From the NCBI RefSeq assembly GCF_030122805.1, contig NZ_CP126080.1:2361001-2425000 (forward strand): a stretch of DNA of 64,000 nt, in the 5' to 3' direction. Source of the DNA: Mesobacillus sp. AQ2 (GTDB taxonomy: Bacteria; Bacillota; Bacilli; Bacillales; Cytobacillaceae). The position numbers and the translations under genes were made by a program. Each line of letters begins with the position of its first letter. Position 1 is the stretch's first letter. The notes under the pieces were generated by a model that did not search any database, was not told the origin of the DNA, and saw only the letters and a list, made by a program, of their open reading frames with translations. Positions 14,742-50,106 of this stretch are shown piece after piece.

Positions 14742-14770
14742 CAGGAACTTATTTCGGTTTTTAACAATAA

Positions 14771-14803
14771 GAACCACCCGCAAATCAACGGGTGGTTCTG
14801 TCT
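14771..14803. terminator. Bidirectional terminator between VOC and redoxin genes
   Basis: Perfect 10-bp stem GAACCACCCG / CGGGTGGTTC with T-rich tails on both strands; the two genes converge here. Confidence 0.85.
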
Positions 14804-14805
14804 GC

Positions 14806-15327
14806 TTATTCTGATGGTTTCTTGCCTTTCGCTATGTCCGCAGCATAAGGAATGATTCCTTCAGCTTCGATACCGAATGGATCAATTTGCTGGGAATGGA
14901 GGACAGTGCCGTCCTTATCTAGAACAGCGAACCCTCGAACAGCAATCGGAGACTCTGGATCTAGTAAATTAACCTTTTTGATCAATTTCAGGTCTTTATC
15001 CGAAATAACCGGATATTCAAGTCCCAATTCTTCCTTCATTGCTTTATGTTCCTTAACGGAAGATGCACTTACCGCGTAAATATTGCCAGGGAACTGGCTG
15101 AATAAGTCTTTTCGGTTCTGCAGCTCGACCAGCTGCGATTTACAAAAGTCTCAACCAACTCCTGTAAAAAAGAAAACGAGTGCAGGCTCTTCCATATTCT
15201 CAAAAGAAACATCCTTCCTGTTTTCATCTGGAAGGGTTAGCGTGGCAGACTCGGATTTTTCGATTGAACAACCATTTATGATAGCTCCCACGGTGAAAAG
15301 GATGAGGATGAAGATTGACTTTCGCAT
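14806..15327 (-). CDS. Lipoprotein redoxin (TlpA/AhpC-TSA-like) with in-frame TGA: probable selenoprotein, Sec59
   Basis: The frame runs from ATG 15327 (AAGGAGG 6 nt upstream) to a stop at 14806, 173 codons, interrupted only by TGA at 15151-15153. Residues 1-20 form a signal peptide ending in a lipobox-like INGC, so the protein is probably membrane-anchored outside the cell. The body is thioredoxin-fold: PALVFFFTGVG, then the TGA codon, DFC, KSQLVELQ, and later YPVISDKDLKLIKKV and GFAVLDKDGTV. TGA replaces the first Cys of the expected CxxC (U59-D-F-C62). Coding character continues after the TGA with no indel, and a hairpin resembling a bacterial SECIS follows. The alternative is a Cys-to-stop mutation. 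It is divergent from Mn catalase. Confidence 0.65.
15120..15136 (-). promoter_or_regulatory. SECIS-like hairpin downstream of the in-frame TGA
   Basis: In the mRNA, GCAGCU-GGUCG-AGCUGC: a perfect 6-bp stem with a 5-nt loop beginning GGUC. The loop starts 20 nt after the UGA. The Escherichia coli fdhF SECIS also has a GGUC-containing apical loop at a similar distance (from memory). SelB binding is inferred, not shown. Confidence 0.55.
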
Positions 15328-15379
15328 GATGCACCTCCTTATGTATCTTCTCTAGTATATCGTTTTAAGATGAAATCTT

Positions 15380-15514: not shown

Positions 15515-16297
15515 ATGTATATCCACAAAAAAGAACTATTGTTCCCAGTCCAAGTCAAGAGCCCAAATCCTGCCCATGCTGCTGCAGTACTTGAACAGTT
15601 TGGCGGTGCCAATGGTGAATTGAAAGCCTGTCTCCAATATTTTGCCCAGAGTTTTAGTACCCCCGACCCTGCGATTCGCGATTTGCTGATGGACATTTCA
15701 ACTGAGGAAATCTCGCATCTTGAAATGGTGGGGGAGTGTATCACTCAATTGATGGGTGGTACTGATAAAGAGCAGAAGATGGAAGAGATGGGTGCAGATG
15801 AAAGGAAAATGTCTGGTGAAGGAAACCTCTTATCTGATGCTAAAAACCAGATCAATAATATGATGCAGTTCAACTTTAATTCTACGGTTCAGAAAAGCAT
15901 GATTCTCGATGGACATGGACTTGATTTTGTGGATTCTTCAGGAACACCTTTCACAGGGAATTTCATTAATAATGTTGGCGATCTCGTTGCGAACCTTCAA
16001 TCAGATCTCGCTGCTGAACTTCGAGCCAAAAAGGTATACGAAGAATTATACCGCCATGTAGACGACCCGGGCGCAAGGGAGATGTTCCAATTCCTGATCG
16101 ACCGCGAAGCTGCCCACGCCACACTATTTGAAGAGGCCATCATGCGTGCAAAAGAAATCGAAAATAAAAAAGCACATAAAACAGGCGACCATGTAAATAT
16201 GTATTTTGACCTCTCACTCGGCGGCCTTGCCAAAAATGAATTCAGCTTTGCCAAACAAGCAAAGGTGTATGAAGGCCCAGTCGAGCCGAAAGAATAA
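15515..16297 (+). CDS. Manganese catalase
   Basis: 260-residue dimanganese catalase that removes hydrogen peroxide. The ferritin-like four-helix core shows the metal ligands: Glu in ANGELKACLQYF, EEISHLEM (Glu and His), LRAKKVYEELYRH and DREAAHATLFEEAI (Glu and His). The spore-coat CotJC branch is shorter, and the length here fits the YdbD-type vegetative enzyme. A sigma-B-like promoter lies upstream. It is divergent from the redoxin lipoprotein gene, so both genes of the pair deal with peroxide or thiol stress. Confidence 0.9.
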   Translation: MYIHKKELLFPVQVKSPNPAHAAAVLEQFGGANGELKACLQYFAQSFSTPDPAIRDLLMDISTEEISHLEMVGECITQLMGGTDKEQKMEEMGADERKMSGEGNLLSDAKNQINNMMQFNFNSTVQKSMILDGHGLDFVDSSGTPFTGNFINNVGDLVANLQSDLAAELRAKKVYEELYRHVDDPGAREMFQFLIDREAAHATLFEEAIMRAKEIENKKAHKTGDHVNMYFDLSLGGLAKNEFSFAKQAKVYEGPVEPKE

Positions 16298-47132: not shown

Positions 47133-50106
47133 TTCGAAATTTACGATACAGATTAATGGCAAGGAATACAGTGCCGTAGTGGGACAGAAGATTTTAGAAG
47201 TCGCAAGAGCTGAAGATGTCTTTATTCCTGGTGTCTGTTACCATCCAGACCTGGGAACCATCCAGACATGTGATACATGCTACGTGATGGTGGATGGCCA
47301 ATTGACGCGGTCATGTACGATGAAGGCTGAGCCAGGGATGAAAGTCGATACCATGTCCGATCAGGTAAAGACAGCACAGTATGAGGCAATGTCAAGGATC
47401 CTTAAAAATCATGAACTGTATTGTACCGTTTGCGATAACAACAATGGTAACTGCACGATCCATAACACTGTTGAAGATATGGGGCTTGCCCATCAGAAGT
47501 ATCCATTTGTAGCTAAACCGTATCCCCCGGATAATTCACATCCTTTTTACCGGTACGAGCCTGACCAGTGCATCCTTTGCGGCCGCTGTGTTGAAGCTTG
47601 TCAGGATTTACAGGTGAATGAAACGCTCACGATCGACTGGAGCCGGGAAGTTCCAAGGGTCATTTGGGACAATGATGTTCCGATTGACCAATCTTCCTGC
47701 GTATCCTGCGGGCATTGTGTGAATGTATGTCCTTGTAACGCCCTGATGGAAAAATCAATGCTCGGGAATGCCGGTTTTCTGACCGGAATCGCTCCAAATA
47801 TTCTTGCTCCAATGATTGATATGACAAAAGAGGTGGAACCGGGGTATCGTGAAATTTTTGCTGTATCTGAGGTTGAAGCAGCAATGAGAAAAGCGCGGAT
47901 TAATCGTACCAAAACGGTCTGTACTTATTGTGGAGTGGGCTGCAGCTTCGAGGTCTGGACAAAGGACCGTGAAATTTTGAAAATCCAGACAAAGACAGAG
48001 GCACCGGTTAACGGAATCTCCACTTGTGTAAAAGGAAAATTCGGCTGGGATTTCGTCAACAGTGAAGAGCGTCTGACAAAGCCGCTCATCAGAAAAGGCG
48101 AAGAATTTGTTGAGGCGACATGGGATGAAGCCCTTTCCCTGATTGCCGAAAAACTTTCTGGAATCAAAGAGGAACATGGTCCGGATGCAATCGGTTATAT
48201 TGCCTCTTCAAAATGCTCAAATGAAGAAAACTTCCTGTTCCAAAAGTTCGCCCGGGGAATTATGGGGACTAATAATGTCGACAATTGCTCCAGATACTGT
48301 CAGTCTCCAGCGACGACAGGATTGATGCGAACCGTAGGACTTGGCGGGGATTCAGGAACTATGGAGGATATCATGGCATCCGAGCTTGTGATGGTGGTCG
48401 GCGCGAATCCGGCTGAATCACACCCTGTTTTGGCGACAAGGATCAAACGTGCCCATAAGCTCCATGGCCAGAAGCTCGTCGTCGTGGATTTAAGGGAGAA
48501 TGAACTGGCAGAGCGAGCCGATTTATTCCTGCATCCTAATCCAGGAACAGATATCATCTTGCTGAATGCCATTGCGAAATACTTCTTTGACCAGGGCTGG
48601 GAGGATACAGCTTTCCTTGCTGAGCGTGTGAATGGCTTGGAAGAATTCAAGGCGTCTCTTGATAAATTCACCCTGGAATATGCGGCAGAAAAAACAGGCA
48701 TCACCATGGAACAGCTGCTTCGCCTTGCAAAAATGATCAAGGAAGCCAAATCTGTCTGTATCCTGTGGGCGATGGGTGTTACCCAGCATATGGGTGCATC
48801 GGATACAAGCACCGCCATTTCGAATTTGCTGCTGGTAACAGGGAACTATGGACGGACTGGAACAGGTGCTTACCCATTGCGCGGACATAACAATGTCCAG
48901 GGAGCTTGCGATTTTGGAACATTGCCGCCTTGGATGCCTGGCTATGAGCCTGTGAACGATGAAGCTGTCCGGGCTAAATATAAGGCTGCCTGGGGAGTAG
49001 ACCTGCCTGAAAACCCTGGTTATGACAACCACCATATGGTTGAGGCCATCAATAAAGGGAAGATGAAAGCACTCTATCTGTTTGGCGAGGACATGGCTAT
49101 CGTGGATGCGAACTCCAACTATGTACATTCCACCTTTGAAAAACTCGATTTCTTCGTAGTCCAGGATATATTTTTCAGCAAGACGGCTCAGTTTGCTGAT
49201 GTCATTTTACCGGCTGCGCCAAGTCTTGAAAAGGATGGGACGTTCACGAACACTGAAAGGCGGATCCAGAGATTCTACAAAGTATTTGAGCCGCTGGGAG
49301 ATGCAAAGCCTGACTGGCTGATATTCCAGGAACTCGCTAATCGACTTGGTGCTGATTGGAACTACCAGCATCCTTCCGAAATCATGGACGAGGCGGCCAA
49401 GCTCGTGAATATATTCGCTGGAGTAAGCTATGAACGGCTCGAGGAGTGGGAGTCGCTGGTATGGCCGGTTAACCCGGATGGAACCGACACACCTCTGCTG
49501 TACACCGATAAATTTGGCTTCCCTGATGGAAAGGCAAGGCTAGTGCCTGTCGACTGGACAGTACCATTCAATCCGGGCGCGGATTTTGATTTACATCTCA
49601 ATAATGGGCGCATACTTGAGCATTTCCATGAAGGCAATATGACACATAAAACCGAGGGTCTGGTGCATAAAGTGCCTGATGTATGGCTCGAGATTTCACC
49701 TGAGCTTGCAGCTGAACGAAATCTTGAGGATGGAGCACTTGTGGGGCTGACTTCGCCGTATGGCCATGTTGAAGTCCGGGTGATTGTGACCGACAGAGTA
49801 AAAGGGCATGAATTGTATCTGCCGATGAATACAGCGGAGGATAATGAGGCTGTGAACAGGCTGACAAGCAGCTATCACGATATCATTACCCATACTCCTG
49901 CCTATAAGGAGATGGGAGTTAAAATGGAAGTGCTCGAAACCTCTGGCGAACCGCCGCTTCCGAATCATAATCATCGTTATGGAAACAGGATTCCTCAGAT
50001 TAGTGTGAAGGTGGAGGAAAAATGGAAGCGGGCTGACTATATACCGATTTCAGAAATAGATGACTTGAAGGAGGGATATTATGGCGAAAGCGATCAGGCA
50101 AATTAG
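47125..50106 (+). CDS. Formate dehydrogenase catalytic (alpha) subunit, Cys-type, with N-terminal ferredoxin domains
   Basis: 993-residue molybdenum bis-MGD formate dehydrogenase, similar in length and layout to B. subtilis YrhE/YjgC. Domain order: 2Fe-2S domain (residues 1-80, CDTC), His/Cys-rich cluster site (ELYCTVCDNNNGNC), two 4Fe-4S motifs (CILCGRCVEAC, CVSCGHCVNVCPC), then the Mo-enzyme part opening CTYCGVGCSFEVW. The residue that is selenocysteine in E. coli FdhF is Cys392 here (DNCSRYCQSP). The C-terminal MGD-binding domain has HNGR-like NNGRILEHFHEGNM. It oxidises formate to carbon dioxide; the electron acceptor is unknown. The next gene overlaps by 26 nt. Confidence 0.93.
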   Translation: MSDSKFTIQINGKEYSAVVGQKILEVARAEDVFIPGVCYHPDLGTIQTCDTCYVMVDGQLTRSCTMKAEPGMKVDTMSDQVKTAQYEAMSRILKNHELYCTVCDNNNGNCTIHNTVEDMGLAHQKYPFVAKPYPPDNSHPFYRYEPDQCILCGRCVEACQDLQVNETLTIDWSREVPRVIWDNDVPIDQSSCVSCGHCVNVCPCNALMEKSMLGNAGFLTGIAPNILAPMIDMTKEVEPGYREIFAVSEVEAAMRKARINRTKTVCTYCGVGCSFEVWTKDREILKIQTKTEAPVNGISTCVKGKFGWDFVNSEERLTKPLIRKGEEFVEATWDEALSLIAEKLSGIKEEHGPDAIGYIASSKCSNEENFLFQKFARGIMGTNNVDNCSRYCQSPATTGLMRTVGLGGDSGTMEDIMASELVMVVGANPAESHPVLATRIKRAHKLHGQKLVVVDLRENELAERADLFLHPNPGTDIILLNAIAKYFFDQGWEDTAFLAERVNGLEEFKASLDKFTLEYAAEKTGITMEQLLRLAKMIKEAKSVCILWAMGVTQHMGASDTSTAISNLLLVTGNYGRTGTGAYPLRGHNNVQGACDFGTLPPWMPGYEPVNDEAVRAKYKAAWGVDLPENPGYDNHHMVEAINKGKMKALYLFGEDMAIVDANSNYVHSTFEKLDFFVVQDIFFSKTAQFADVILPAAPSLEKDGTFTNTERRIQRFYKVFEPLGDAKPDWLIFQELANRLGADWNYQHPSEIMDEAAKLVNIFAGVSYERLEEWESLVWPVNPDGTDTPLLYTDKFGFPDGKARLVPVDWTVPFNPGADFDLHLNNGRILEHFHEGNMTHKTEGLVHKVPDVWLEISPELAAERNLEDGALVGLTSPYGHVEVRVIVTDRVKGHELYLPMNTAEDNEAVNRLTSSYHDIITHTPAYKEMGVKMEVLETSGEPPLPNHNHRYGNRIPQISVKVEEKWKRADYIPISEIDDLKEGYYGESDQAN

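Follow-up and report, generated by a model that had tools for sequence, protein, structure and literature searches.

Selenoproteins with a UxxC motif are entered under both AhpC/TSA (PF00578) and Redoxin (PF08534) in a 2026 inventory (PMC13188914), and two of the types described there resemble the gene reported here. The Prx-like thiol:disulfide oxidoreductase selenoproteins (PF00578, UxxC or UxxU; WP_010940744.1) share the domain and the UxxC motif with the present redoxin family; compared by domain and motif alone, the family differs from the WP_010940744.1 type in having a lipobox, in occurring in only one order among 398 genomes of a phylum sample and in lacking a clear Cys form. The likeness to the Redoxin family selenoprotein (PF08534, UxxC; HEU0032618.1), again by domain and motif alone, consists of a PF08534 match above the cut-off and UxxC. 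Through these PF00578 and PF08534 entries, the gene joins the known UxxC selenoproteins of the AhpC/TSA type by domain and motif. What is apparently new is a Sec-only lipoprotein family, here found in one order alone. The words Bacillus and Bacilli are absent from the main text of the inventory, and literature searches, weak in coverage, found no description of a UGA-containing redoxin lipoprotein family. According to two reviews, nearly every selenoprotein has Cys homologues, on which homology methods lean (PMC9312934, PMC12013277). Families that have no clear Cys form are of the kind that such methods miss.

The AhpE and PrxQ/Bcp peroxiredoxins (4x0x, 3hjp, 3gkm) are 16–20% identical to the redoxin protein, which differs from them in having Sec where the PxxxT/SxxC motif has Thr/Ser and Thr where it has Pro, as well as a lipoprotein signal. 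The SelL-related redox protein model NF040769 gives a weak match of 28.3 bits, far below its cut-off of 120.

The host genome, that of Mesobacillus sp. AQ2, consists of one contig of 4.80 Mb, and the window, the whole stretch of 64,000 nucleotides that was analysed, corresponds to its positions 2361001–2425000 (G000:C1). The minus strand from 15327 to 14806 of the window holds a single frame with a TGA at 15153–15151 as the sole interruption, while the plus-strand reading of the same stretch contains several stops. The residues around the UGA read TGVG-U-DF-C, and the stem-loop GCAGCU-GGUCG-AGCUGC begins 14 nt past the TGA, with a distance of 20 nt from the UGA to the loop. The continuous frame, ribosome site, TGA position, redox motif and downstream stem of the preliminary description, which names no strand, were all found again on rereading the sequence, on the minus strand. 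The features are as follows.

14806..15327, minus strand: predicted selenoprotein gene for an AhpC/TSA-type redoxin lipoprotein, 173 codons plus TAA, with TGA read as Sec
15151..15153, minus strand: in-frame UGA, codon 59, predicted Sec and first residue of UxxC, kept in 81 of 81 loci
15142..15144, minus strand: codon of Cys62, second residue of UxxC, invariant in 22 aligned proteins and placed on the peroxidatic Cys in the profile alignment
15120..15136, minus strand: SECIS-like hairpin, stem GCAGCU/AGCUGC and loop GGUCG, with pairing and compensatory changes
15268..15270, minus strand: codon of the lipobox Cys20 (I-N-G-C), conserved as Cys at 80 of 81 loci
15334..15340, minus strand: ribosome binding site AAGGAGG ahead of the ATG, read directly; many relatives have one too
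15354..15359, minus strand: possible promoter -10 box TATACT, found by eye; most upstream sequences of clade A, the clade of this gene, share TATACT
14769..14799, minus strand: terminator-like hairpin AGAACCACCCG...CGGGTGGTTCT past the stop codon, found by eye

TTCACA-type sequences, possibly a regulator site, lie 5' of the distant clade A genes L047, L049–L052, L069, L070, L074 and L078. A match to the Rfam family sraL over the 3' end and the terminator is sub-threshold (24.9 bits, cut-off 39) and was taken as chance.

Relatives of the gene occur at E <= 1e-15 in 75 of the 193 genomes of the host family, in 82 rows, one of which, a piece of the C-terminal part past the UGA in G070, was left out. 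All 81 loci that were read have the UGA with a Cys at +3. They form two clades, A with 43 loci, including the window gene, and B with 38; the nine clade B proteins among the 22 aligned are 25–32% identical to the window protein, and five genomes (G022, G024, G072, G076 and G077) carry both clades. At the level of the order, a profile of 22 sequences found matches at E <= 1e-20 in 71 of 397 genomes, and each of the 74 rows has one TGA, five of them also having a TAA. Position 59, claimed for Sec in the preliminary description, thus keeps its UGA throughout, in the family loci and in the order-level rows. A phylum-wide sample yielded matches at E <= 1e-15 in three of 398 genomes, two of them in the host genus and with UGA, the third in the same order and without UGA, a generic-looking CPVC redoxin. 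The 14 named records, which come from Mesobacillus, Cytobacillus, Neobacillus and unnamed Bacillus isolates, with one labelled Chryseobacterium, all have the UGA and the beginning of the hairpin. Two loci, L045 and L063, have a frame that ends early, at some 127 codons; in L045 (G070, 240 contigs) the remainder forms a separate row, perhaps owing to an assembly error.

Over the 91 pairings of 14 equally long clade A genes, the mean pN/pS is 0.24 in codons 21–58 and 0.12 in codons 71–173. Judged by these ratios, the part of the gene past the UGA is under strong purifying selection.

No clear Cys form of the lipoprotein family was found among the 81 loci, in the order sample or among about 5.8 billion proteins searched with a profile. 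Because the protein search needs shared 5-residue words, it could overlook a distant relative with Cys. The preliminary description had placed the gene within a recurrent pattern of Sec-for-Cys exchange in redoxin active sites; since no clear Cys form was found, no such exchange is seen within this family. The nearest Cys-containing genome match, L148, scores 58.9 bits, less than any of the UGA rows in the order search, which reach at least 75 bits, contains RGSWCPVC and has no visible lipobox. It is taken as a generic redoxin, and, as it illustrates, the statement that there is no Cys form hinges on the chosen threshold.

The protein search returned 87 matches. Trp stands at the Sec site in 26 of these, recognized by pattern in 25 and by eye in P0030; a further 60 begin past the site and one, P0088, is a remote peroxiredoxin. 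In this search the family is thus represented only as fragments beginning past the UGA or as entries with Trp at the Sec site. The idea that Trp in the metagenome proteins is a real substitution was dropped, the codon being TGA, not TGG, in 81 of 81 genomic loci. Because of this uniform TGA, the Trp residues are most simply explained as UGA called under genetic code 4 on short contigs. The metagenome gene calls with Trp at this site (P0002–P0031) could mislead conservation studies.

The machinery for Sec insertion, which the preliminary description named as a check on its proposal, is present in the host genome with all four components. The tRNA-Sec is above the Rfam cut-off and is also called by ARAGORN, and selA (567.6 bits, cut-off 267.9), selB (361.7 bits, cut-off 242.25) and selD (403.2 bits, cut-off 125) are all well above theirs. 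The selD gene adjoins selA on the opposite strand, back to back, and the tRNA-Sec and selB genes are located away from this pair. SelD (L013:10860-11990) has a UGA of its own, in A-G-U-G-C-K.

Carriers of the redoxin gene all have selA, both in the host family (75 of 75, with selA in 172 of 193 genomes) and in the order sample (71 of 71, with selA in 181 of 397). One selA-negative family genome was taken as G192, which lies outside the carriers either way. The hypergeometric log10 p is -4.8 for the family and -28.3 for the order, with shared descent ignored; the family-level co-occurrence is weak evidence, because selA is common there.

Other UGA-containing genes occur in the same genome. The formate dehydrogenase in the window (G000:2408914-2410923, about 47914-49923 of the window) uses Cys, as the preliminary description had stated: its gene lacks an in-frame TGA, and the column that holds Sec in L144 holds Cys here. 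From the use of Cys the preliminary description had concluded that Sec would serve another purpose, and that conclusion is right only in part, since L144 (G000:C1:2864274-2866295), a formate-dehydrogenase-type gene, has a UGA in U-H-A-P, and the host would therefore have a Sec formate dehydrogenase besides the Cys one. A further formate dehydrogenase-like row with TGA (G000:4683046-4683798) is below the cut-off. A second predicted selenoprotein, referred to here as Prx-MCP (L015:4507-5871; G000:C1:2002506-2003867), combines AhpC/TSA with a chemotaxis-receptor signalling domain (PF00015) and contains U-P-N-C. Genes of this type match in 13 of the 193 family genomes at E <= 1e-50, with TGA in 12 of the 13 rows; the remaining row is a fragment without the redox part.

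In bacteria the SECIS element is a hairpin just past the UGA with a G in the apical loop. The hairpin of the redoxin gene, which lies just past the UGA and has the loop GGUCG, agrees with this description. Its single-sequence fold is ordinary: the energy of -12.4 kcal/mol gives z -1.65, and 12 of 200 shuffles do as well, so that the hairpin alone is within chance, while the comparative evidence is beyond it. In an alignment of 81 sequences of 48 nt (64 distinct), compared with 500 shuffles, the six-pair stem is formed in 99.0% of cells versus 95.6%, 20 cells versus 6.9 are changed on both sides and the covariation score is 0.158 versus 0.085, values that none of the 500 shuffles reaches. The number of stem pairs with changes on both sides (2 versus 1.1, reached by 35 of 500 shuffles) and the number of further pair types in the stem (3 versus 3) do not stand out. 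Sliding the partner by one to three columns leaves no cells changed on both sides. Four of the six pairs are invariant. The main change replaces G-C by A-U in the third pair and so turns GCAGCU/AGCUGC into GCAACU/AGUUGC; clade B has it often, clade A once. The stem at 15120–15136, singled out for covariation in the preliminary description, does therefore contain compensatory changes.

Synonymous sites in the hairpin of clade A are nearly frozen. Codons +4 to +10 have a synonymous identity of 0.83–1.00, dropping to 0.51 at +11, versus a mean of 0.46 (single ones up to 0.95) in 44 conserved-residue columns elsewhere. In clade B the hairpin codons (0.49–1.00 versus a mean of 0.52) show as a whole no extra conservation. 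A covariance model of the hairpin finds the redoxin gene in the host genome at E 3.6e-13 and the Prx-MCP gene at E 2.4e-4, followed by a next match at 0.29. The Prx-MCP match is partly non-independent, because a Q-L-V peptide is shared there, though that gene is outside the model.

The redoxin protein matches PF00578 with 71 bits (cut-off 26) and PF08534 with 45 bits (cut-off 26.6), and the clade B example L081 matches PF00578 with 52 bits; six NCBIfam models also match the redoxin protein, all below their own cut-offs. Among chains of solved structures, AhpC is matched at E 1.4e-10 and ResA at E 7e-6 and 1.6e-5. The predicted fold is peroxiredoxin-like, and peroxiredoxins top the best Foldseek matches listed. 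The preliminary description had called the protein a thioredoxin-like redoxin; the redoxin domain is there, but the nearest folds and sequence relatives are peroxiredoxins.

In a profile alignment, Cys62 of the UxxC motif falls on the peroxidatic Cys of AhpC and peroxidoxins, Sec59 on a conserved Thr/Ser and Thr55 on the Pro of PxxxT/SxxC. The protein thus departs from this canonical peroxiredoxin motif, which makes peroxidase activity uncertain. Arg131, invariant in the 22 aligned proteins, is placed on the conserved Arg of AhpC and peroxidoxins. The lipobox Cys was recognized in 76 loci by pattern and in four by eye; in L115, of clade B, it is lost (LSAF), and this protein may not be lipid-anchored.

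The gene is read, with a probability of about 0.88, as encoding a selenoprotein with Sec at UGA59, predicted from sequence to be an exported, lipid-anchored redox protein of the peroxiredoxin type with a UxxC pair. The surface-anchored Sec redoxin of the preliminary description is thereby upheld, with support from the Sec machinery, the conservation of the UGA, the covariation of the stem and the purifying selection past the UGA. The best reading of its function is a predicted surface selenenylsulfide peroxidase or thiol oxidoreductase. UGA59 would be decoded as Sec by SelB and tRNA-Sec, directed by the downstream hairpin; after export, the product would be held on the outside of the membrane through a lipid attached to Cys20. 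The Sec59/Cys62 pair probably cycles between the selenol/thiol and selenenylsulfide forms as it reduces extracellular peroxides or disulfides, and would be recharged by a membrane-located thiol partner. Peroxide reduction is the first guess, favoured slightly, and a thiol-disulfide role is the second, held with less conviction.

A selenoprotein that is not a peroxidase but a thiol-disulfide oxidoreductase of the ResA/TlpA kind, acting for example in cytochrome or spore-coat maturation, is a serious though less probable alternative. Surface lipoproteins of such size often act in thiol-disulfide exchange, and the place of UxxC corresponds to that of CxxC in thioredoxins. Here UxxC occupies the CxxC place, the peroxidase motif is broken and ResA chains are among the structural matches, but AhpC and other peroxiredoxins outscore ResA by sequence and top the fold matches listed, and the peroxiredoxin Arg is kept.

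The remaining alternatives concern the UGA itself. Were it a true stop, with the downstream part made from a later start, two short proteins would result, much as database gene calls beginning past the UGA (60 of 87) suggest; this is improbable, as the split would fall inside the redox motif and leave a first part of 58 residues, the hairpin co-varies, selA is present in all 71 order-level carriers and clades A and B, though just about 30% identical, both preserve this join. Reading of the UGA as tryptophan, or unprogrammed read-through, is a still poorer explanation: the Trp at the site in 26 of 26 long database homologues is countered by the TGA, not TGG, of all genomic loci and by the association of the site with selA and with a SECIS-like hairpin downstream. 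Least credible of all, and refuted as far as sequence data reach, is a sequencing error or a pseudogene, even with the other broken genes that the preliminary description reported in the window, since all 81 loci, drawn from many assemblies, have the same UGA and pN/pS is 0.12 beyond it.

Neighbourhood clustering gave no interpretable operon common to both clades, and no partner is named; one cluster, obtained by single linkage around a PAS-like protein, takes in 8 loci of clade A and 15 of clade B. A divergent manganese catalase gene (PF05067) lies beside the redoxin gene at 15515–16297 of the window. Close relatives have it at 10 loci, among them cases where a single genome contributes two records, and it turns up remotely in L093; no functional link is drawn.

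The selenoprotein reading adds a predicted cell-surface selenoprotein that is present in 75 of the 193 genomes of the host family. It is an even bet that the gene represents a Sec-only family of peroxiredoxin-like lipoproteins at the surface of Bacillus-like bacteria, in which Sec would have taken the place of the catalytic Thr/Ser beside the old peroxidatic Cys with no Cys version left, and that this extracellular enzyme would be one reason for keeping the Sec trait. If the family is confirmed, the question why Sec would be irreplaceable could be tested on it directly, and in Bacillus-like bacteria selenium supply would be tied to extracellular redox chemistry.
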